A stretch of 37,394 bases of DNA from an uncultured Oscillospiraceae bacterium (lineage in GTDB: Bacteria > Bacillota > Clostridia > Oscillospirales > Oscillospiraceae). The notes beneath the pieces are model-generated. The model saw only the letters and a list, made by a program, of their open reading frames with translations. It ran no database searches and was not told where the DNA came from. The translations under genes were made by a program, and so were the position numbers. The DNA lies in contig CAMVRT010000018.1 of the NCBI GenBank assembly GCA_947169975.1, positions 1 to 37,394 of the forward strand, written 5' to 3'. This document shows positions 1-13,762 of the stretch, in pieces. The first letter of the stretch is position 1. Every line of letters starts with the position of its first letter.

Positions 1-678
1 GAAAGCGGCATCGGCGATCTGATCGCCGTGGACGTGGGCGGCGCCACCACCGACGTCTACTCCATCGCCGACGGCATGCCCCGCCAGATGAACACCGTCT
101 ACAAGGGCTTGCCCGAGCCGTTTTCCAAGCGGACGGTGGAGGGCGACATCGGCATGCGCTACAGCATCCGCGGTATCGTGGAGGCCGCCGGCATCGACGC
201 CGTGTCCGCCCTGTCCGGTCTGACCCGCGAGCGTGTGGCGGAGCTGGTGGATTTCCTGGCCGTTCACACCGACGTGGTCCCCGGGGACGACGCCGAGCTG
301 GAGGCGCTGGACTACGCCCTGGCCTCCCTGGCCATTGAAACGGCAGTCAGCCGCCACGCCGGCACCATCGAGGAGACCTACACCATGATGGGTAAGACCT
401 TTGTCCAGTCCGGCAAGAACCTGACGGAGGTCAAGCAGGTCATCGTCACCGGCGGCAGCCTGATCCACACCAAGCGCACCGCACAAATCGCCTCTCACGC
501 ACTGTTTGACCCCGCCAAGCCCAGCTCTCTGCGTCCCATGGGCGCCGAGATCCGGGTAGACCGATCTTACATCATCGCAGCCATGGGGCTTCTGTCCGCA
601 CACTATCCCCAGACGGCCCTGCGAATCATGAAAAAGGAGCTTGAAAACGATGGATATACAGAACAAGCGCATTCCTGA
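1..678 (+). CDS. glmL: Glutamate mutase accessory ATPase GlmL/MutL, C-terminal part
   Basis: The reading frame is open from base 1, so the gene begins outside the window; about 225 C-terminal residues are present, against roughly 460 for the family. GlmL proteins are actin/Hsp70-fold ATPases thought to maintain or reactivate the coenzyme-B12-dependent glutamate mutase. The phosphate-binding signature [12 protein letters not shown] lies near the left edge, and a second glycine loop, [11 protein letters not shown], lies further on, as expected of an ASKHA ATPase. The end overlaps the start of glmE by 29 bases and carries its ribosome site (AAGGAG, 634-639), so the two are translationally coupled. 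Identity is firm because glmE and mal follow directly. Confidence 0.93.
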
Positions 679-2101
679 CGACGAGTTTGCCCGTCTGCGC
701 CAGGAGGTACTGGCCCAGTGGCCCACCGGCAAGGACGTAGATCTGCAGGAGGCTGTGGACTATCACAAGTCCATGCCCGAAGAGCGTATCTTCTCCAAGA
801 AGCTGGTCGCCGCCAAGGCCGCCCACAAGACGCTGGTACAGCCCCGTGCGGGCGTGCCCGTCATTGAGGAGCACATCAAGCTGATGCAGTATCTGGAGAA
901 GGAGGGTGAGGCGGATCTGCTGCCCACCACCATCGACAGCTACACCCGTCAGAACCGCTATGAAGAGGCGGAGAACGGCATCAACGAGTCCCTCCGTCTG
1001 GACCGCGCCATGCTCAACGGCTTCCCGGCCGTGAACCACGGCGTGGCCGGCTGCCGCCGCGTCATCGAGAGCGTGCATACCCCCGTGCAGGTGCGCCACG
1101 GCACCCCCGACGCCCGATTGCTCACCGAGATCACCTACGCCGGCGGCTTCACCAGCTATGAGGGCGGCGGTATCTCCTACAACCTGCCCTACTGCAAGAA
1201 CATCCCCATGGAGCGCACCATCCGCGACTGGCAGTACGTGGACCGTCTGACCGGCCTGTATGAGGAGATGGGCGTATCCATCAACCGCGAGCCCTACGGT
1301 CCCCTCACCGGCACGCTGGTGCCCCCCTGCATCTCCCATGCCGCCGCCATCATCGAGGCGCTGCTGGCTGCCGAGCAGGGCGTGAAGAACATCACCGTTG
1401 GTTACGGCCAGTGCGGCAACCTGGTGCAGGACATCGCCGCCATCCGTGTTCTGGAGGAGCTGACCGACGAGTATCTGGCCAAGTACGGCTACAACGACGT
1501 GGTGGTCACCACCGTGCTGCACCAGTGGATGGGCGGCTTCCCCGCCGATGAGGCCAAGGCCTTCGGCGTCATCTCCTCCGGCAGCCTGATCGCCGCTCTG
1601 TCCGGCGCCACCAAGGTCATCGTCAAGAGCCCCCACGAGGCTGTGGGTATCCCCACCATGGAGGCCAATGCCCAGGGTCTGCGCTGCACCAAGCAGGTGG
1701 TCAATATGATGGCGGATCAGACCTTTAACGACGTCCGTCTGGCCCAGGAGATGGAGATCATCCGTCAGGAGACCCGCTGCATCGTGGACAAGTGCTTCGA
1801 GCTGGGCAACGGCGACATCGCCATCGGCGTGTGCCGCGGCGTCGAGGCCGGTGCGCTGGACGTGCCCTTTGCCCCCTGCCGCGCCAATGCCGGCCTCATG
1901 CTCCCCTGCCGTGACAACGAGGGTGCCGTCCGCATCCTGAACACCGGCAACCTGCCCTTCACCCAGGATCTCAAGGACTTCCACGCCGCCAAGATCAACG
2001 AGCGCGCCCAGTTTGAGCACCGCGCCGCCTCCTTCCAGATGGTCATCGATGACGTGTACGCCATCGGTAAGGGCCGTCTGGTTGGCCGCCCCCGCTATTG
2101 A
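650..2101 (+). CDS. glmE: Methylaspartate (glutamate) mutase epsilon subunit
   Basis: 483 residues, the usual length for GlmE, the TIM-barrel subunit that with the B12-binding subunit GlmS converts L-glutamate to (2S,3S)-3-methylaspartate. Typical stretches are visible: [12 protein letters not shown] near residue 105, [13 protein letters not shown] near 130, the glycine-rich THAGGFTS-like segment [20 protein letters not shown], and [11 protein letters not shown]. The start is set at ATG 650 because AAGGAG at 634-639 lies 10 bases upstream; an in-frame TTG at 641 almost touches that site and is unlikely. The gene sits between glmL and mal, the conserved order of the methylaspartate fermentation operon. 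GlmS is not in the window and is presumably upstream. Confidence 0.97.
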
Positions 2102-2128
2102 TAAGAATTATTATAGGAGGATTTCACC

Positions 2129-3382
2129 ATGAAAATTGTTGACGTCATCTGCTCTGCCGGCCGTACCGGCTTCTACTTCGACGACCAGCGCGCCATCAAG
2201 AAGGGCGCCGGCCACGACGGCGTGTTCTACGTCGGCGATCCCGTCACCGAGGGCTTCACCTCCGTCCGCCAGGCCGGTGAGTCCATCTCCGTGATGCTGG
2301 TGCTGGAAGACGGCCAGATCGCCTACGGTGACTGCGCTGCCGTGCAGTACTCCGGCGCGGGCGGCCGCGATCCCCTGTTCCTGGCCCGTGACTTCATCCC
2401 CATCATCGACAAGTACATCAAGCCCCAGCTGGTTGGCAAGGAGGCCAATGACTTCCGCGGCCTGTGCGCCATGATGGAGGCCATTCAGGTGGAGGGCAAG
2501 CGCCTGCACACCGCCATCCGCTACGGCGTGTCCCAGGCCATTCTGGACGCCGTCGCCAAGGCCACCGGCCGTCTCATGTGCGAGGTTGTTGCCGACGAGT
2601 ACGGCTGCACCATCTCCGAGACCCCCATCGCCATCTTTACCCAGTCCGGCGACGACCGCTACAACAATGCCGACAAGATGATCATCAAGGGCGCTCAGGT
2701 CCTGCCCCACGCCCTGATCAACAACGTGGACACCAAGCTGGGCCGCAACGGTGAGAAGCTGGCTGAGTACGTGGCATGGCTGCGCGACCGCATCCTGAAC
2801 ATGCGCACCGATGAGAGCTACATGCCCATCCTGCACATCGACGTCTATGGCACCATCGGCGCCGCCTTCGGCAACAACAACTACAAGGCCATGGCCGACT
2901 ATCTGGCCAAGCTGGAGGAAATCGCCAAGCCCTTCCACCTGCGCATTGAAGGCCCCATGGACTGCGACTGCGACCGCGAGACCCAGATGGTGGCTCTGGC
3001 CGGTCTGACCCGCGAGCTGGACGAGCGGGGCATCAACGTGGAGCTGGTGGCTGACGAGTGGTGCAACACGCTGGAGGACATCAAGCTGTTCGCCGACAAC
3101 AAGGCCGGCCACATGGTGCAGATCAAGACCCCCGATCTGGGCGGCATCAACAACACCATCGAGGCTGTTCTCTACTGCAAGGAGAAGGGCATCGGCGCCT
3201 ATCAGGGCGGCACCTGCAACGAGACCGACCGCAGCGCTCAGGTCTGCGTCCACTGCGCCATGGCCACCCAGCCCGTACAGATCCTGGCCAAGCCCGGCAT
3301 GGGCGTGGACGAGGGCTTCATGATCGTCTACAATGAGATGAACCGCATCCTCGCCGTCCGCAAGGCTCGCAAGGCCCGGTAA
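2129..3382 (+). CDS. mal: Methylaspartate ammonia-lyase
   Basis: 417 residues, close to clostridial 3-methylaspartate ammonia-lyases of the enolase superfamily. The enzyme removes ammonia from 3-methylaspartate to give mesaconate, the second step of glutamate fermentation by this route. The catalytic-lysine region reads MVQIKTPDLGG and is followed by GGTCNETDRSA, both hallmarks of the family; metal-ligand acids lie in HIDVYG and RIEGPMDCD. A strong AGGAGG site at about 2116-2121 precedes the ATG. It is the last gene of the glm operon and is followed at once by a strong terminator. Nothing looks broken. Confidence 0.98.
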   Translation: MKIVDVICSAGRTGFYFDDQRAIKKGAGHDGVFYVGDPVTEGFTSVRQAGESISVMLVLEDGQIAYGDCAAVQYSGAGGRDPLFLARDFIPIIDKYIKPQLVGKEANDFRGLCAMMEAIQVEGKRLHTAIRYGVSQAILDAVAKATGRLMCEVVADEYGCTISETPIAIFTQSGDDRYNNADKMIIKGAQVLPHALINNVDTKLGRNGEKLAEYVAWLRDRILNMRTDESYMPILHIDVYGTIGAAFGNNNYKAMADYLAKLEEIAKPFHLRIEGPMDCDCDRETQMVALAGLTRELDERGINVELVADEWCNTLEDIKLFADNKAGHMVQIKTPDLGGINNTIEAVLYCKEKGIGAYQGGTCNETDRSAQVCVHCAMATQPVQILAKPGMGVDEGFMIVYNEMNRILAVRKARKAR

Positions 3383-3392
3383 AACTCTCCGA

Positions 3393-3432
3393 AAAAAGTA
3401 AAACCTCCGGATATCCGGAGGTTTTACTTTTT
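3393..3432. terminator. Bidirectional intrinsic terminator
   Basis: A perfect 20-bp inverted repeat centred between 3412 and 3413, built around CCTCCGGATATCCGGAGG and flanked by A-runs on the left and T-runs on the right. It ends the mal transcript on the plus strand. Read from the other strand it ends the operon whose last gene stops at 3478. Confidence 0.93.
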
Positions 3433-3477: not shown

Positions 3478-4122
3478 TTATTCCGTCCCAAACAGTACCT
3501 TGCGGAACAGCTGCTCCGTCTTTTCCTGACCCAGCGTCTTTTTAAACACGTCGGTGGAGGGACCGCCGTGGGTCAGCAGACCGTCCACGTAGGCGGCGGT
3601 CTTGGCCTTCTTGGCGTCCTTGTCCGTCAGCGGCCGGCACTGGGCGCCAAGCCATGCGGCAAAATGGTCCTCTGCCAGGCGGTCGAAGGCCGCGGTGCGG
3701 TCCTTTTTTTCCTTCTTCGAAATGCTCTGGGGGAGCCGGATGTTGTCGTACCAGTGGGTGCCGGGATCCCGGTCGGGCAGGTCGGCGCTGCGCTTGAGCA
3801 GCTCATCCAATTCCGGCACGGCAAAGCCACCCACAGTGGTGTCGTACAACTCGGCAATCAGCGTGTCGTTGCCCATGGCCAGAATGCGGTCATAGGAGTA
3901 GAGAGGCAGATCCCGCTCCGTGGGGTTGACGATGAGGGTATCCATCTTCATCAGCCCGAAAAATCCCTTGGCCCGCATCACGGACACGTGGCCCAGGCCT
4001 TCGGCCTCATAGGATTCCACCGTGAAACGCATGCCGTTGGCCTTGAGTGCGGCGAACTCACCGGCATCACAGGAGCGCACCGGGTACGTTTTTTTCAGCA
4101 GAGCAAGCAGTTTTTCCGTCAT
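3478..4122 (-). CDS. Ferredoxin-dependent bilin reductase-like protein (putative)
   Basis: 214 residues; ATG at 4122 chosen because AGAGGAG lies just upstream and the start overlaps the previous stop (ATGA). The frame stays open further upstream, but that part is only the shadow of the next gene. From memory of the family, two regions match ferredoxin-dependent bilin reductases (FDBR; PcyA, HY2, RCCR): the core strand TLIVNPTERDLPLYSYDRIL (residues 62-81), with Asp78 at the place of PcyA Asp105 and Asp61 near the place of His88, then TLIAELYD; and the C-terminal tail from about residue 178, YVDGLL...STDVFKKTLGQ...LFRKVLFG, resembling the FDBR tail with NDKT and VLFD. Family members reduce biliverdin or chlorophyll catabolites with ferredoxin electrons and no bound cofactor. 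Fold assignment is an inference and the substrate is unknown. Last gene of the TetR-linked operon. Confidence 0.62.
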   Translation of the reverse strand: MTEKLLALLKKTYPVRSCDAGEFAALKANGMRFTVESYEAEGLGHVSVMRAKGFFGLMKMDTLIVNPTERDLPLYSYDRILAMGNDTLIAELYDTTVGGFAVPELDELLKRSADLPDRDPGTHWYDNIRLPQSISKKEKKDRTAAFDRLAEDHFAAWLGAQCRPLTDKDAKKAKTAAYVDGLLTHGGPSTDVFKKTLGQEKTEQLFRKVLFGTE

Positions 4123-4757
4123 ACAGCCTCTCCTCTTTTCTTCAGCCGGAAGGCGGTGAGGCCGTTCTTGTGCAGCAGCAGCACACCCGCCAACAGGGTA
4201 CCCTGACCCGCCACGTTCACTCCCTCGGCAATCCAGTTCATGGAGGCCTGGGCGAAGTCCTTGGAGGACAGATAGCCCATGCCCAGAGAGCAGACAAAGG
4301 AGATCAGGAACAGAACAATCAGCGCAGGCTTTTTCAGTCTGACGGACAGGACGCACAGCACCGCGTCCAGCATGCCCAGTCCCAGCACCATCAGGGAGAC
4401 GAAGACGAAGGTGCCTTTGAACACCGGCGGCACCACGGCGTAGGCGGTGGATTTCCCCTGCCGGTGCAGCAGCATGGCCAGAATGCCGACGCCAGCCAGC
4501 AGGAAACCGATAGACTGAACAGGGAAGAACATGTCGCTCAGCGGCGTGAAGTCGCACACGCCCAGGGCGTACAGCAGCTTGTAGGTGGCCTTGAGCGCGC
4601 CGGCGCAGGTGACGTCGATAAGGCCGGCGGCAAAGAGGGCGAAGGCCCCCTTGCTCATCTTGTTGTAGAGGTCGCGCATCAGAATGACGCCGGCGACGGC
4701 GAACAGCAAAACGGGGATGTAATCCACCAGCGCCATGGCGATGGAAAACTCCTTCAC
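4119..4757 (-). CDS. Polytopic membrane protein of unknown function
   Basis: 212 residues with about six hydrophobic segments and a basic end (RLKKRGEAV). The start is a GTG at 4757, with AAGGAGGG about 10 bases upstream inside the end of the preceding gene; the stop overlaps the next start by four bases (ATGA), so it is translated as part of a coupled chain. I do not recognise the family and no catalytic motif is evident. Position between a DUF1295 membrane reductase and the bilin-reductase-like gene suggests a membrane partner, substrate carrier or electron-transfer anchor for the operon, which is inference from context only. Confidence 0.8.
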   Translation of the reverse strand: MKEFSIAMALVDYIPVLLFAVAGVILMRDLYNKMSKGAFALFAAGLIDVTCAGALKATYKLLYALGVCDFTPLSDMFFPVQSIGFLLAGVGILAMLLHRQGKSTAYAVVPPVFKGTFVFVSLMVLGLGMLDAVLCVLSVRLKKPALIVLFLISFVCSLGMGYLSSKDFAQASMNWIAEGVNVAGQGTLLAGVLLLHKNGLTAFRLKKRGEAV

Positions 4758-4762
4758 GGCGC

Positions 4763-5578
4763 TCAGCCCTCCTTCTTGTTCAGGTGGTAGATGGGCAGCA
4801 GAGGCAGGATGATGGGAGTCTTATCGGCGTATTCGTTGTAAGCCTTCAGGTGGCCGTACTGCTTCATCTGCCGTTTTTCCATGCGCTGTGCGCCGTTGAA
4901 CATGATATAGACGATGGCGATGTAGGCCACGATGGCGAAGATCCACTGTCCCACGCCGCGGTAGGTGGTGAGGCCCGCAACGAACACGCCGGTCCAGAAG
5001 GTGATCTCGCCCAGATAGTTGGGGCAGCGCACCATTTTGTAGAGGCCCTTGGTAGCTACCATTTTGGGGTTGACCTTCTTTTGGGCGGATTTCTGCTTGT
5101 CCGCCAGGGACTCCAGCAGCAGACCGCAGACGGAAATAACGATACCGACAATAGGCACCACCACGTCCGTGGAACCGTTGTGCCAGCGGAAGAGCATGGG
5201 GCTGACCTGCATCACGTACAGGGCGGAGACGAAGATCCAGATGAAGAGCAGCACGAAAACGGGCATCTTCTTCTCGTCGTTTTTGGCCAGAGACTCCTTG
5301 GCCACGTTGGTCTTGCGGAAGGAGGCGTTCTTGAACTCACGCGCCAGCAGGAAGCCGGAGAGCCGGGCGCCGTAGGCCACGAACAGCAGCATCTGGATCA
5401 GAACCAGCCACAGCGGCGTGGCGGTGGGATGGATCAGGTACATGATAAAGACGGTGACAGCGCCGCCGGCCACGGCGAGGCCGTAGCCCACGGATAGGAA
5501 GTAGACGAACTTATAGAAGCCCACGGCGCACATCACGGCGCAGACGATATAGAGAATTCCCAGCAGTCCCCAGCTCAT
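4763..5578 (-). CDS. DUF1295 / steroid 5-alpha-reductase-like membrane enzyme
   Basis: 271 residues with about seven membrane segments. The C-terminal half carries the family signature: ATKGLYKMVRCPNYLGE (residues 175-191), equivalent to the RHPNYFGE motif of DUF1295 and steroid 5-alpha-reductase C-terminal domains, then FWTGVFVAG and later YIMFNGAQRMEKR. Relatives are NADPH-dependent reductases of conjugated double bonds in steroids and isoprenoids, or sterol-type reductases and methyltransferases of the same fold. AAGGGGG in the end of the upstream gene serves as ribosome site; the gene starts directly against the previous stop. A steroid-like or tetrapyrrole-like lipophilic substrate is plausible but not shown. 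Confidence 0.85.
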   Translation of the reverse strand: MSWGLLGILYIVCAVMCAVGFYKFVYFLSVGYGLAVAGGAVTVFIMYLIHPTATPLWLVLIQMLLFVAYGARLSGFLLAREFKNASFRKTNVAKESLAKNDEKKMPVFVLLFIWIFVSALYVMQVSPMLFRWHNGSTDVVVPIVGIVISVCGLLLESLADKQKSAQKKVNPKMVATKGLYKMVRCPNYLGEITFWTGVFVAGLTTYRGVGQWIFAIVAYIAIVYIMFNGAQRMEKRQMKQYGHLKAYNEYADKTPIILPLLPIYHLNKKEG

Positions 5579-6445
5579 TTAGTTCGCCCCCTTGCCGAAA
5601 TAGTCCTTGATATAGGCGGCAAAGCTCTTCTCGCCCACCTTGGTGTCGCCTACCAAATCGTGGCTCAGGGTCCAGCGGGAGAAGAGGATGATGTCGTGCT
5701 TGCCGGCCTTCTTGATCTTGGGCAGGTTGGCCAGAATGCCGAACAGCCAGATGGGAGCCCACTTGATCTTCAGGGGCTTGCCGGCGGCGTCAAAGCACAT
5801 CTTGGCCATTTCCTCGTAGGTGTAGGTCTCCTTGCCGCCCACGTTGTAGGTCACGTTGGTGTCGCACATGTGCTCCACGATGAACTTGGCGAAATCGGGG
5901 CAGTCCACCACGTTGGCCTTCACCTTGCCGTAGCCCTTGAGGAGCTGCATTTCTCCCTTGTCCACGTAGGGCTTGAAGACCTTGCAGATGTCGTAGAAGT
6001 AGCCGGTGGGACGGTAGATGACCCAGTCCATGGACTGCTTCTTCAGCTCCTGCTCCACCAGATACTTGGCATGGAGCATGGGCACTTCCTCGGCGCCCGG
6101 CTCGTCGCAGGAGATGACAGAAATATAGTTGAACTTCCTGACGCCGGCACGCTTGGCCTCGTCGTAGAGGTTCAGGTTGCCCCGCTGGTCGATGTCGTAG
6201 GAGGTAAAGCGGGTGGAAGCGCCGGTGAGGCCCATGGTGGTGATGACCACCTCGGCGCCGTCGCAAAGGCCCTTCAGGGTCTCGGGATTGGTGGCGTCAA
6301 TGCTGCGGAAGGTGTATTTGCCCTCGGTGCCCTCTATGGGACGCTCCTTCAGATCGGCGGCCACGACCTCGTGTCCCGCCTTGCACAGCTCCTTCAGGAG
6401 CTCCGCGCCCAGATTGCCGAACGCGCCTGCCAGTACTACTTTCAT
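5579..6445 (-). CDS. Atypical SDR, NmrA / divinyl-reductase-like NAD(P)H reductase
   Basis: 288 residues. The N-terminal Rossmann motif GAFGNLG (residues 7-13) and acidic/basic DLKER at the end of the second strand indicate a dinucleotide site. The middle carries VITTMGLTGAS, YISVISCDE, HAKYLVEQEL with Lys127, and WVIYRPTGYF, a pattern of atypical SDRs such as NmrA-like proteins, complex-I NDUFA9 relatives and 3,8-divinyl chlorophyllide reductases. The classical YxxxK catalytic motif is absent, as is normal in that group. The ribosome site is AGGAGA before ATG 6445. In this operon it may supply hydride to a vinyl, enone or polyene substrate; the exact reaction is not readable from sequence. 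Confidence 0.85.
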   Translation of the reverse strand: MKVVLAGAFGNLGAELLKELCKAGHEVVAADLKERPIEGTEGKYTFRSIDATNPETLKGLCDGAEVVITTMGLTGASTRFTSYDIDQRGNLNLYDEAKRAGVRKFNYISVISCDEPGAEEVPMLHAKYLVEQELKKQSMDWVIYRPTGYFYDICKVFKPYVDKGEMQLLKGYGKVKANVVDCPDFAKFIVEHMCDTNVTYNVGGKETYTYEEMAKMCFDAAGKPLKIKWAPIWLFGILANLPKIKKAGKHDIILFSRWTLSHDLVGDTKVGEKSFAAYIKDYFGKGAN

Positions 6446-6464
6446 GGTGATCTCTCCTTTTATA

Positions 6465-7388
6465 TTATTTATTCTTTTCCTTGGACCGCTTGTCGTTGAT
6501 GATCTTCATATGCTCTGCCGTGATCAGCTCCACATTGTTTTCCTTAGCCCAGGACACGCAGCCCTTCAGCACCACCGGCAGGAACACCCGGGGCACGTTG
6601 AGGATGGTCTCCAGCGCGTCGTCGGTAAACTTGATCTTGTCATCCACACGGTCGGCGGCGTAGCGCACGGACTCCAGAGAGGCCTTGCGCATGGGCAGCA
6701 GCTCGGCGCGCATGCGGCGCTTGCGGTGGAACCAGAAGTTCTTGCTGTCGCGGTAGCCGTAGTCCACCGGCAGAGGCGGGAAGTCCCGGGCCTGTACGCC
6801 GTTGATGATGGCGTCGGAGTACTGCTTCTTCATGAGAATGCGGTCCACCCGCAGGATGAAGTGGGCGCCGAACTTGGAGGTGATGCCGTTGAAGTCGTGG
6901 TAGGGGGGCTCATAGCCGTCCAGCACGCCGGGCTTGTCGTCCTGGGCGTGGTCCAGCTCCCGCATCCAGGTGCACTCGATGGCCTGGATGGCGTCGGTCA
7001 GCACCATGGGCCGCTTCTCGCCGGTTTCCTCCTCGATCTGGCTCTTCTCCAGACGGAAGTTGCACTTGGGCATCTTGTCCTCCGGCTTGTCGCCGGGCCA
7101 GCTCAGCTTGACGCACTCCTTGAAGGTGGCGGGCTTGTCGTCCACAAAGTTGATGGCGCACTTGCCGGTGCGCAGGATGTTCTGCGCCGTGTTGGAGGAG
7201 TTGCGGCAGCACAGCAGCATGGCGTAGTAGTCCTTGCCCGCCACATAGTAGGGCTGGCACAGGGAATAGGGGCCCAGGGTGGTGGAGCCATCCTCACACA
7301 GCGTGCTGATGACCACCGTGGGCATGGGGAAGAACAGGGACGTCTGATAGAAGTTGTCAACGATACGCAGGTTTTCAAAGCTGCTCAT
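6465..7388 (-). CDS. Flavin-reductase-like split-barrel protein with C-terminal PCP_red-like domain
   Basis: 307 residues. Residues about 15-185 look like the FMN-binding split barrel of flavin reductases: PTVVISTLCEDGSTTLGPYS, then NTAQNILRTGKCAINFV. After a basic linker (HRKRRMRAELLPMRK), residues about 253-300 (FTDDALETILNVP, GCVSWAKENNVELIT) match the pattern of the PCP_red domain (PF08369), best known from the end of the light-independent protochlorophyllide reductase subunit BchB. Ribosome site AGGAGG; the start overlaps the tetR stop by 14 bases. A flavin-dependent redox role is likely; the PCP_red assignment is from memory and could be tested by profile search. The domain pairing strengthens the tetrapyrrole idea for this operon. 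Confidence 0.8.
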   Translation of the reverse strand: MSSFENLRIVDNFYQTSLFFPMPTVVISTLCEDGSTTLGPYSLCQPYYVAGKDYYAMLLCCRNSSNTAQNILRTGKCAINFVDDKPATFKECVKLSWPGDKPEDKMPKCNFRLEKSQIEEETGEKRPMVLTDAIQAIECTWMRELDHAQDDKPGVLDGYEPPYHDFNGITSKFGAHFILRVDRILMKKQYSDAIINGVQARDFPPLPVDYGYRDSKNFWFHRKRRMRAELLPMRKASLESVRYAADRVDDKIKFTDDALETILNVPRVFLPVVLKGCVSWAKENNVELITAEHMKIINDKRSKEKNK

Positions 7389-7914
7389 AAGATTCCTCCT
7401 TTTGATTTGATATCAGCTTTTTCAGCTCTTGGTATATACGCTCAAACGGGGTGTTTGAGATCGTCCAGGTCAGCAGCGCCTCGGAGATAAAACGCGCCGT
7501 AAAGCCGTCATCCGACGGTGCGATCGGCTCGACGAGGGCTGTCAGCTGTTCCCGCAGCTGCAGATGCCGGGATAAAAACACACCGGAAACAGCCTTGGCG
7601 GCGTCGGGATCGGCAAACAGCGTCCGGTGCTCTTGGGTGAAGGTCAGCAAACCGTCATAGATAGCCCGCAGGCAGGTCTTCGCATCTCCCCGGCTCCTCT
7701 CCCCCATGAGTGCAAGGGCCCGATGCCAGTCCTCCGCCACAAAGGATGCCACCAGACTCTCCTTTGACGGGAAATAGTTGTAAACCGTACCCACCGCAAT
7801 GCCGCAGGCGCCTGCCACAGAGCGGACGGTGGTCTTGGAATAACCCCGCTCCGCAATTTGCCGCCGCGCCTCGGCCAGCAGCTGCTGGCGGATATTTTCT
7901 ATCTGTTTGGGCAT
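7375..7914 (-). CDS. TetR/AcrR family transcriptional regulator
   Basis: 179 residues. The N-terminal helix-turn-helix is classical: RQIAERGYSKTTVRSVA followed by GIAVGTVYNYFPSKESLV (about residues 17-52). The C-terminal half is the variable ligand-binding region (WTISNTPFERIYQEL near the end). It lies second in the operon, four bases from the upstream stop and overlapping the next start, so it is co-transcribed with the genes it probably controls. The likely operator is the 14-bp palindrome ATGAACATGTTCAT at 8736-8749, which overlaps the operon promoter. Repression relieved by the pathway substrate would be the usual arrangement; this is inference. Confidence 0.92.
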   Translation of the reverse strand: MPKQIENIRQQLLAEARRQIAERGYSKTTVRSVAGACGIAVGTVYNYFPSKESLVASFVAEDWHRALALMGERSRGDAKTCLRAIYDGLLTFTQEHRTLFADPDAAKAVSGVFLSRHLQLREQLTALVEPIAPSDDGFTARFISEALLTWTISNTPFERIYQELKKLISNQKEESYEQL

Positions 7915-7917
7915 TTG

Positions 7918-8685
7918 TCACGCCTCCGTTTTCTGCATCAGCGCCAGGATCGCCTCTGCCGTGCGGCGGATCTGTTCCGCGCCGGAGATGGACGGCGTGC
8001 CGTCGCCCCGCTGAGGCCCGTACATACCGAACCCGGCGTGGCAACCGCCTTCGATCACCAGTTCAACGGCATCCTCCGGCAGATGGGATCGGTTTTGTTC
8101 ATAGGAGCGGCGGTTCATCACGCCGTCCTCGCTGCCGTAGACGGAGAGAATGGACAAGCCGCTGCCGGACAGATCCTTGGAGGCGTAGGATGCCAGCAGG
8201 ATCAGCCCGTCAAAGCCGTCGCCGTGCCTGGACAGGTAGGACGCCGCCATGACGCCGCCCAGCGAGTGCCCGCCCATGTACCAGCGCTGCACCGCCGGAT
8301 AGGCTTCCCGGATGCCGTCGGCAGCATTCTCATCGAAGACCGCCAGATGACACGGCATTTTGCAGATCACGCAGAACACGCCGTTTGCCGCCAGCTGGCG
8401 CATCAGCGGCGCATAGGCGTCCTCTGCCACCTTCCCGCCGGGATAGAAGATCAGTCCGCAGGCTTCCTGCCCGGTTCCGAAGATGAGGTCTCCGTTCTCC
8501 AGCACCTGCTCCTCTACGGCAAGATCCGCGGAGAAGGCGGCAATGGCCGTCTCATCCGCCGGGTAATACGACGTCAGATACCAGGCGCAGGCACCTGCCA
8601 GAATCGCCAGAATAAGCAGCGGGATCAGGATCTGCCGGATGAGTCTCCCGCGTTTTCGGGTATCTGTTTGCTTATTTCCTGCCAC
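7918..8685 (-). CDS. Membrane-anchored alpha/beta hydrolase
   Basis: 255 residues. The start is taken as GTG 8685, with GAGGAGGT just upstream; a longer in-frame start at 8730 would have no ribosome site and lies inside the leader. Residues 13-36 form a signal anchor (RLIRQILIPLLILAILAG). A catalytic triad can be placed: nucleophile Ser141 in GGHSLGG, Asp187 in YGSEDG and His216 in GGCHAGFG, fitting the dienelactone-hydrolase-like alpha/beta hydrolases. First gene of the operon, directly behind its promoter. An extracytoplasmic esterase or deconjugating activity preparing a substrate for the downstream reductases is possible, but only context supports it. Confidence 0.85.
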   Translation of the reverse strand: MAGNKQTDTRKRGRLIRQILIPLLILAILAGACAWYLTSYYPADETAIAAFSADLAVEEQVLENGDLIFGTGQEACGLIFYPGGKVAEDAYAPLMRQLAANGVFCVICKMPCHLAVFDENAADGIREAYPAVQRWYMGGHSLGGVMAASYLSRHGDGFDGLILLASYASKDLSGSGLSILSVYGSEDGVMNRRSYEQNRSHLPEDAVELVIEGGCHAGFGMYGPQRGDGTPSISGAEQIRRTAEAILALMQKTEA

Positions 8686-8735
8686 GATCCACCTCCTCTC
8701 CGACACGGGGCATAAAGCCAATACAAGCAATTTTT

Positions 8736-8776
8736 ATGAACATGTTCATTGTATGCCGGATCCCGCAATTTGTCAA
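8736..8776 (-). promoter_or_regulatory. Operon promoter with overlapping TetR-type operator
   Basis: Read on the minus strand: -35 TTGACA (8771-8776), a 17-base spacer, -10 TACAAT (8748-8753), a near-perfect sigma-A promoter. The last two bases of the -10 begin a perfect 14-bp palindrome, ATGAACATGTTCAT (8736-8749), typical in size and form of TetR-family operators. Repressor bound there would block polymerase. The first start codon follows at 8685 with an AGGAGG site. Confidence 0.85.
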
Positions 8777-12442: not shown

Positions 12443-13300
12443 ATGAGAATCGCAGTCACGTATGAGAACGGTGAGGTGTTCCAGCACTTCGGCCACACGG
12501 AGGAGTTCAAGATCTATGAGGTGGAGGGCGGTCAGGTGATCTCCTCCGAGATCATCAGCTCCAACGGAAGCGGTCACGGCGCTCTGGCCTCCCTGCTGGG
12601 CGACCGCAAGATCGACGTGCTGATCTGCGGCGGCATCGGCGGCGGTGCCCAGGCCGCTCTGGCGGATCGGGGCATTGAGCTCTGCTCCGGCGCCACCGGA
12701 AACGCGGACCAGGCGGTTTCCGCCTATCTGCGGGGCGAGCTGGTCAGCTCCGGTGTGAATTGTGACCATCACCACGACGAGGACCACTCCTGCGGCGATC
12801 ACGACTGCGGCGAGGGCGACTGCCACAGCGGCGGCTGCCAGGGTTGCCATCCCCAGCCCGCCATGACCGGCAAAAACGTGGGCAAGAAGTGCCGTGTCCA
12901 CTATTGCGGCACCTTCAATGACGGCAAGCAGTTCGACTCCTCCTACGACCGGGGCGAAACCCTTGACTTTATCTGCGGTGCGGGTATGATGATCCCCGGC
13001 TTCGACGCCGCGGTGGCCAAGATGGATGTCGGTGAGACCGTGCAGATCCATCTGATGCCCTCCGAAGCCTACGGTGAGAAGGACCCCAACGCCATCTTTA
13101 CGGTGGATATGGCAGTTGTCTCCGGTTCGGAGAAGCTCACCGTGGGACAGCAGGTCTATCTGCAGGGCAGCAACGGCCAGCCTTTCCCGGTCAAGGTTAC
13201 CGCCAAGGATGACAAGACCATCACCTTTGACGCCAACCATGAAATGGCCGGCAAGGAGCTGAACTTTACCATCGAGCTGGTTGAGGTCACAGAGGCGTAA
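12443..13300 (+). CDS. NifX-like domain fused through a Cys/His-rich linker to an FKBP prolyl isomerase
   Basis: 285 residues in three parts. Residues 1-100 (MRIAVTYENGEVFQHFGHTE, then DVLICGGIGGGAQ) match the dinitrogenase iron-molybdenum cofactor/NifX-NifB-like fold. Residues 105-138 form a linker with six cysteines and seven histidines, an obvious metal-binding segment. Residues 146-283 are an FKBP domain of SlyD type (RVHYCGTFNDGKQFDSS, MIPGFDAAVAKM, EAYGEKDP) with the inserted chaperone flap. SlyD normally carries its His/Cys metal-binding tail at the C-terminus; here it precedes the domain. A role in metal-cofactor delivery with folding assistance is suggested. The gene begins three bases after the HD gene. 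Confidence 0.9.
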   Translation: MRIAVTYENGEVFQHFGHTEEFKIYEVEGGQVISSEIISSNGSGHGALASLLGDRKIDVLICGGIGGGAQAALADRGIELCSGATGNADQAVSAYLRGELVSSGVNCDHHHDEDHSCGDHDCGEGDCHSGGCQGCHPQPAMTGKNVGKKCRVHYCGTFNDGKQFDSSYDRGETLDFICGAGMMIPGFDAAVAKMDVGETVQIHLMPSEAYGEKDPNAIFTVDMAVVSGSEKLTVGQQVYLQGSNGQPFPVKVTAKDDKTITFDANHEMAGKELNFTIELVEVTEA

Positions 13301-13351
13301 AAGCCTCTGTGAGATGTGCGCGGAAGCAAGTCTGAACAGGAGGCGACAGAC

Positions 13352-13762
13352 ATGGAACGCCCGATCATGAGGGATCCCATCTTTCTCTCGCAGAAATCCG
13401 CCCCTGCCGCGGCAGAGGATCTGCCTGTGGCCCGGGATCTGCTGGACACGCTGATTGCCCACAGGGACGGCTGCGTCGGCATGGCCGCCAACATGATCGG
13501 CGTTGCCAGACGCATCATCGTCTTTGACAATGACGGTACATATACGGTGATGCTCAACCCGGAGATTGTGAAGGCCGGCGGCCCGTATGAAGCCGAAGAG
13601 GGCTGTCTGTCACTGGCAGGCGTGCGAAAGGCGAAGCGGTACCGCTCCATCAAGGTGCGGTATCAGAACGAGGCCATGCAGGTGCGGCTGAAGACCTTTA
13701 CCGGCTTTCCCGCCCAGATCATCCAGCATGAGATCGACCACTGCAACGGCATTCTGATTTGA
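13352..13762 (+). CDS. def: Peptide deformylase
   Basis: 136 residues, short for the family. ATG 13352 is chosen because CAGGAGG lies eight bases upstream; an earlier start at 13316 has none. All three PDF motifs are present: CVGMAANMIG (residues 41-50), EGCLS (83-87) with the cysteine metal ligand, and QHEIDH (125-130) with the two histidines and the glutamate. In motif I the usual glutamine (GLAAxQ) is replaced by methionine; that residue normally helps position the substrate carbonyl, so activity may be altered or substrate-specific. Such a short second deformylase is common in Clostridia. Confidence 0.9.
   Translation: MERPIMRDPIFLSQKSAPAAAEDLPVARDLLDTLIAHRDGCVGMAANMIGVARRIIVFDNDGTYTVMLNPEIVKAGGPYEAEEGCLSLAGVRKAKRYRSIKVRYQNEAMQVRLKTFTGFPAQIIQHEIDHCNGILI

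Follow-up and report, generated by a model that had tools for sequence, protein, structure and literature searches.

A TetR-linked gene set with a bilin-reductase-superfamily protein in an uncultured Oscillospiraceae bacterium as candidate for reduction of a conjugated gut pigment

Introduction

The stretch of DNA analyzed here, in the following called the window, comprises 37,394 nucleotides from an uncultured Oscillospiraceae bacterium (assembly GCA_947169975.1, contig CAMVRT010000018.1) and represents contig C18 of a genome of 2.16 Mb, assembled in 46 contigs with a completeness of 97%. Its minus strand carries an operon of seven genes, the last of which encodes a protein of 214 amino acids that belongs to the superfamily of ferredoxin-dependent bilin reductases (FDBRs), as confirmed by its fold and supported by its sequence profile, and that represents a new clade in a new setting. 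The gene set, its recurring order, an operator motif, the FDBR fold, the conserved position of the catalytic aspartate and the lack of a detectable heme oxygenase were found by computation. Enzymes of this kind reduce bile-like pigments in plants and cyanobacteria, and the protein is distantly related to them. We suggest that this TetR-switched operon reduces a conjugated pigment obtained from the contents of the gut. An open-chain tetrapyrrole, i.e., a bile pigment or a chlorophyll-derived phyllobilin, is most likely, and we would assign to this reading a probability of roughly 45%. Published work on this gene set or on a clostridial FDBR was not found among the papers listed in searches of open-licence literature, in agreement with the initial annotation, which had regarded the operon as undescribed.

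Organization of the Operon

The operon and its control elements are composed as follows.

8748 to 8776, minus strand: sigma-70-like promoter TTGACA-17-TACAAT with 11 of 12 consensus matches, a consensus match only
8736 to 8749, no strand: perfect palindrome ATGAACATGTTCAT, putative operator, overlapping the end of the promoter -10 box
7918 to 8685, minus strand: alpha/beta hydrolase, 255 amino acids (PF12695, Abhydrolase_5, 178.6 bits, cut-off 27)
7375 to 7914, minus strand: TetR-type regulator, 179 amino acids (PF00440, TetR_N, 57.7 bits, cut-off 24)
6465 to 7388, minus strand: flavin-reductase-like protein, in the following FLV, 307 amino acids (PF01613, 30.1 bits, cut-off 27)
6498 to 6635, minus strand: C-terminal tail of FLV, weakly PCP_red-like (PF08369, below cut-off)
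5579 to 6445, minus strand: NmrA/NAD(P)-binding_10 type oxidoreductase of the short-chain dehydrogenase/reductase (SDR) type, 288 amino acids (PF13460, PF05368)
4763 to 5578, minus strand: DUF1295 membrane reductase of the steroid 5-alpha-reductase superfamily, 271 amino acids (PF06966, PF02544)
4119 to 4757, minus strand: polytopic membrane protein, in the following MEMB, 212 amino acids, no family above cut-off
3478 to 4122, minus strand: FDBR-superfamily protein, 214 amino acids (fold and family profile; no Pfam match of the window protein)
3393 to 3432, no strand: perfect palindrome of 40 bases with A and T tracts, read directly from the window sequence

The seven open reading frames (ORFs) lie back to back, and the window sequence together with the ORF list places their junctions in between a 14-base overlap and a 19-base gap, confirming the tight coupling that had been annotated initially. 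The promoter that had been annotated as strong was recovered as well, as a scan of the region resulted in four promoter-like sites compared to 2.2 expected, of which the one at 8776-8748 is the sole site with 11 of 12 matches. The palindrome at 3432-3393 may be read as a bidirectional terminator common to the operon and to a convergent gene ending at position 3382; it is not listed by the terminator scan of the region, we think because its stem includes the T run. The hydrolase gene starts with a GTG codon preceded by GGAGG, and the hydrophobic N-terminal segment of the encoded protein would by reading be a membrane anchor.

The FDBR-Superfamily Protein

Structural comparison showed that the alpha/beta/alpha fold of the FDBRs spans the whole 214-amino acid protein, with 10-17% identity in the structural alignments with known FDBRs. 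Red chlorophyll catabolite reductase (RCCR) differs from the protein by an identity of 8% and by a lower Z than obtained for PebB, PcyA and HY2, and the fold of CPOX is related too. The link to the FDBRs is seen via relatives, fold and profile-profile comparison only. For the Pfam bilin reductase model PF05996, with a gathering score of 31, the close relatives reach 29.3 bits at best, two distant relatives exceed the threshold with 32.3 and 31.3 bits, and rescanning nine of the 15 A1 rows at E ≤ 1 gave matches in three (8.2e-7, 8.2e-4 and 0.024). Moreover, Asp78 (codon 3891-3889) is invariant in 17 of 17 rows of the family and is aligned by hhalign to the catalytic Asp105 of PcyA, the numbering of which was transferred by counting along the row of a phage PcyA. 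The whole-protein fold, the full-length profile match and the position of Asp105 are shared with the FDBRs PcyA, PebA, PebB, PebS, PcyX and HY2 and with the "pre-PcyA" proteins of heterotrophs.

In a tree with ten known FDBRs, the clostridial FDBR-like proteins form one separate clade with a support of 100/99. The operon of the window itself does not encode a flavodoxin-ferredoxin protein; such a gene lies directly behind the FDBR gene in one relative (L132:7838-9266), where it follows after a single base and encodes a flavodoxin with two [4Fe-4S] motifs, a probable electron donor, and an SDR is also present at this locus. More distant FDBR-superfamily genes, encoding 239-241 amino acids, occur in members of the same class that have larger genomes and a G+C content of 28-37% (L127-L131); two of the four scanned proteins exceed the Pfam bilin reductase cut-off and the operon partners are absent. 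Operon partners are also missing from the vicinity of a distant FDBR-superfamily gene (E 8.1e-23) in another member of the window's genus, which lacks FLV (L195, G125:C1). A plasmid search with a distant clostridial FDBR relative gave no match.

Operator and Putative Regulon

Scanning genome contigs for FLV identified at least 577 stretches that encode it. The analysis used the best 80 of these, so that counts over these 80 loci lean to close relatives. The operator consensus RTGAACNNGTTCAY occurs at 32 sites in these 80 relatives (1,227,383 bases) compared to 0.25 sites expected from base composition. The consensus was drawn from the same loci, the position before tetR not being an input. Of these sites, 26 are located at most 150 bp before a start codon, namely of tetR (21), FLV (3) or the hydrolase gene (2), and in 13 of the 21 tetR-linked sites the distance to the called start of tetR is 26-29 bp. 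Where tetR directly precedes FLV, a site is present in 22 of 28 loci. In three of the other six (L062, L085, L089) the site is found 1.30-1.36 kb ahead of FLV, close to where the hydrolase gene begins; the called start of this gene is misplaced or overlaps the motif, so these sites are outside the 26; in two (L040, L055) it lies 3.5 kb before FLV, and in L077 no site was found. Within the window, ATGAACATGTTCAT is the sole match even with one mismatch allowed (0.25 expected), which for the window alone would prove little. As the conserved operator sits before tetR, control of the operon by TetR, already proposed in the initial annotation, becomes much firmer and a likely regulon is defined; the TetR protein of the operon is predicted to bind the ATGAACATGTTCAT/RTGAACNNGTTCAY motif.

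The operator is also found at the head of operons that lack FDBR. In L055 (6588-9418) scanned genes for a URO-D-superfamily methyltransferase, a methyl-tetrahydrofolate:corrinoid methyltransferase and a corrinoid protein lie in between the operator and TetR-FLV, and in L040 (920-3840) the same demethylation gene set, assigned by clustering, lies in between the operator and TetR-FLV-SDR. From this position the corrinoid demethylase set is likely a member of the TetR regulon, and its presence under the same operator suits methylated plant compounds. An operon reducing plant phenolics or methylated aromatics of the lignan or flavonoid type, with the use of esterases, demethylases and the NmrA-type reductase, would accommodate these genes, as well as the corrinoid demethylase genes next to the operon in L056, the genes for carboxylesterases immediately ahead of FLV in L030 (scanned) and L031 (by cluster) and the carboxylesterase gene which, together with a GPH/MFS-type transporter gene, is inserted in between FLV and SDR in L085. 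NmrA-type reductases resemble plant ether and isoflavone reductases. We regard this explanation as unlikely. The URO-D-type cluster is present in 4 of the 80 loci and, to our knowledge, no phenolic substrate is known for the FDBR fold.

The Partner Reductases and the Membrane Protein

The initial annotation had described FLV as flavin-reductase-like with a PCP_red-type tail. The flavin reductase domain holds, whereas the tail stays below the cut-off wherever it was examined. PF08369 (PCP_red), which we take to be the C-terminal piece of BchB, matches 11 of 17 isolated FLV tails at E ≤ 10 (best E 8.4e-4) and 2 of 18 whole FLV proteins (best E 0.018); the window's own FLV tail gave no match. Across 300 genomes of the family, the best of the matches listed reaches 18.9 bits and is not FLV, the best FLV tail scores 18.8 bits, and none of those listed reaches the gathering score of 32.5. 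At an E value of 1 at least 179 of the 300 genomes show a match, which is mostly noise; among the matches listed, all nine covering at least 39 of the 45 profile positions are FLV tails. Compared to the sequences of the PDB, the tail did not find BchB and FLV found 1eje as sole match (E 0.12). The likeness of the tail to PCP_red is therefore suggestive only.

The SDR scores above cut-off for PF13460 (NAD_binding_10, 60.9 bits), PF05368 (NmrA, 45.9 bits) and 3Beta_HSD (30.1 bits, cut-off 22). The earlier assignment as divinyl-reductase type found no support in a comparison with family models, in which general NmrA and NAD-binding models match and no divinyl reductase model does. The DUF1295 protein, recognized as such from the beginning, scores 91.5 bits for PF06966, far above the cut-off, and 30.6 bits for PF02544 (Steroid_dh, cut-off 22.6), and its family profile finds the bacterial steroid 5-alpha-reductase (SRD5A) structure 7c83 with an E value of 6.8e-5, placing both in the same superfamily. 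SRD5A-type reductases occur in other gut bacteria.

The DUF1295 protein thus equally suits steroids. The operon might reduce steroids or sterols, with the DUF1295 protein as 5-alpha-reductase-type ene-reductase, the SDR as an enzyme like 3-beta-hydroxysteroid dehydrogenase, the hydrolase splitting steryl esters and the FDBR-fold protein recruited to a different role, and the TetR regulator shows a weak score for KstR (34.6 bits, cut-off 280). The matches of the SDR and of the TetR regulator are general in kind, however, and we know of no steroid role for the FDBR fold. Furthermore, the gut steroid 5-beta-reductase described previously belongs to the Old Yellow Enzymes (OYEs), and the available part of that report mentions neither an FDBR or flavin reductase partner nor DUF1295 (PMC12238238). 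Steroid reduction is considered improbable, on a par with the conversion of phenolics.

For MEMB, an alignment of 26 rows revealed invariant Asp12, Lys56, Lys60, Cys68 and Asn174-Trp175. EutH was set aside as its family, with a score of 23 bits that stays below the cut-off of 25.

Gene Neighborhood and Distribution

In 58 of the 80 loci the downstream sequence continues for 3.6 kb or more past FLV. The order FLV-SDR-DUF1295-MEMB-FDBR on the same strand was found in 14 of these 58, so that the gene order recurs above chance in the neighborhood survey that had been proposed with the initial annotation. L085 with the two inserted genes mentioned above, L099 with one extra gene before MEMB, L079 with a split SDR and L061, in which FDBR is a fragment of 41 amino acids as extracted (13268-13393), are among the 14. 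In two further loci SDR, DUF1295 and MEMB are present without FDBR. The count took FDBR genes on the FLV strand only, leaving L035 uncounted, where FDBR lies on the opposite strand behind FLV-MEMB-DUF1295 and SDR is lacking; FDBR is also found near partner genes without SDR in L021 (before FLV) and in L196 (opposite DUF1295). In G164 and G181 the operon ends at MEMB and an FDBR gene is located on a different contig. Outside the family but within the class, SDR-DUF1295-MEMB-FDBR is present in L124 and L125 and TetR-FLV-SDR-DUF1295-MEMB-FDBR in L126, and L123 carries FDBR without operon partners.

Among the 300 genomes of the family, FLV is present in 24 and FDBR in 11, with both in 8, FDBR only in 3, FLV only in 16 and neither in 273, corresponding to a Fisher p of 7e-8 (6e-7 without the window genome), uncorrected for kinship. 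In a class sample of 391 genomes the link is weaker, with FLV in 20, FDBR in 12 and both in 3, including the window's own. This patchy distribution of FLV, which is absent from all five other members of the window's genus in the family set, speaks against the alternative that the operon has a role in housekeeping or stress and acts on endogenous lipids, quinones or heme intermediates, as do the dedicated tetR gene with its operator and the hydrolase, which is read as surface-anchored. Such a role would fit the identity of 84-96% of FLV among the best 80 of at least 577 relatives, often without the other operon genes, and the related fold of CPOX; we consider it the least probable of the explanations.

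A protein of 221-226 amino acids (cluster c8) is encoded directly after FLV in six loci and after FDBR in two (L043, L044, L048, L050, L057, L065, L070 and L027), the copy in L070 being without a Pfam family. In the window, the plus strand from 28 to 3382 carries genes that by eye resemble a glutamate mutase/methylaspartate ammonia-lyase fermentation cluster and converge on the shared putative terminator. Just upstream on the operon strand (9645-8911), but separate from the operon, lies a gene for a regulator of the MerR type, which contains a TipAS antibiotic-recognition domain (104.5 bits).

Host and Gut Site

Considering the loci with enough downstream sequence, FDBR is present in 1 of 9 from the foregut, 6 of 25 from the hindgut and 7 of 24 from other or unstated metagenome-assembled genomes (MAGs), too few for the comparison of rumen and hindgut to decide on bile pigments. 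The site labels were taken from the locus titles, titles with RUG codes presumably denoting rumen, and the goat jejunum locus L072 was counted under "other". A herbivore host is named in 49 of the 80 locus titles, a raw count that takes no account of the make-up of the collection. The excreta of herbivores contain biliverdin and bilirubin (PMC13252198, section 8), and these excreted bile pigments or the chlorophyll eaten might be the substrates of the operon.

Comparison With Known Systems

FDBRs have been described for phototrophs, for the phages of these and for some heterotrophs, in which the FDBR genes are associated with heme oxygenase (PMC10151467); "Clostrid" and "Firmicutes" do not occur in the main text of that study. 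Unlike the known FDBRs, the operon is found in hosts that from their taxa would be anaerobes, and no match to heme oxygenase (PF01126) was detected at E ≤ 1 in the source genome, for which an assembly gap is possible. Moreover, the operon protein has reductases as partners, whereas for the pre-PcyA proteins heme oxygenase, globin, Fe-S and V4R proteins are described in the part of the study considered here (PMC10151467).

The bilirubin reduction by BilR and BilV resembles the operon in its occurrence in gut clostridia, its reductive chemistry and possibly in its pigments. BilR is an OYE. BilV is likewise an OYE according to a recent preprint, which in the part considered also states that the pathway likely reaches beyond what was characterized there (2026, PMC13252198). 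The OYE domain (PF00724) is absent from all seven operon proteins, as anticipated in the initial annotation, and the one OYE gene found in the genome scores 305.3 bits compared to a cut-off of 750 for the long-form BilR model of NCBIfam. With no heme oxygenase detected and an OYE that scores so far under the threshold for BilR, any bilin used as substrate would have to come from outside the cell, and its reduction would follow a route other than that of BilR.

Proposed Mechanism and Its Evaluation

The division of labor may be envisioned as follows. The anchored hydrolase would cleave an ester outside the cell, and MEMB, the role of which is a guess, might admit the product or pass electrons. 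The ligand would free TetR from its RTGAACNNGTTCAY operator. The FDBR-like enzyme, supplied by ferredoxin or flavodoxin, would provide the pigment with electrons and protons via the invariant Asp78. Additional double bonds or side groups might then be reduced by FLV, SDR and the DUF1295 protein with the use of flavin or NAD(P)H.

Several observations weigh against pigment reduction, among them the demethylation genes under the same operator, the operator sites without FDBR, the insertion in L085 and the steroid fit of the DUF1295 protein described above. The window protein has no PF05996 match and a close-family profile found no FDBR among the PDB sequences, resulting in six weak unrelated matches. 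The bilin-reductase likeness of the initial annotation is nevertheless confirmed by the fold, and the refuting outcome named there does not apply to the family, which yields FDBR hits and the genes of which travel together, whereas the window proteins themselves score nothing for PF05996 and PF08369. PcyA His88 is absent from all 17 FDBR-like rows and replaced by threonine in 11 and serine in 6. This histidine is also absent in the pre-PcyA proteins considered, pre-3 having threonine there (PMC10151467). Downstream of FLV, 12 of the 58 loci contain DUF1295 and/or MEMB without SDR or same-strand FDBR, and 30 contain none of the four genes. The SDR and DUF1295 families are not specific for tetrapyrroles. 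Furthermore, a complete operon is present in a MAG from goat omasum (L070), upstream of the entry of bile.

Given the demethylation sets, the carboxylesterases, the steroid fit of the DUF1295 protein and the omasum operon, the class of pathway, in which a gut compound that is conjugated and perhaps also esterified is converted by reduction, stands on firmer ground than any named substrate.

Significance

As a summary, the gut-clostridial FDBR clade, encoded in an operon that recurs among relatives and possesses an operator, is a concrete candidate for the reduction of bile pigments or chlorophyll catabolites outside of the BilR/BilV route. It is conceivable, although somewhat less probable than pigment reduction by the operon as such, that a whole anaerobic branch of the FDBRs acts on linear tetrapyrroles as reductases in the guts of animals, in cells that lack heme oxygenase and beside a flavoreductase with a PCP_red-like tail. 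If true, bile pigments or chlorophyll catabolites would be reduced by a second route that does not depend on OYEs. The operator offers a quick handle on the ligand of TetR, and an evolutionary claim is made testable, namely whether the FDBR fold is functional in organisms living in the absence of oxygen.

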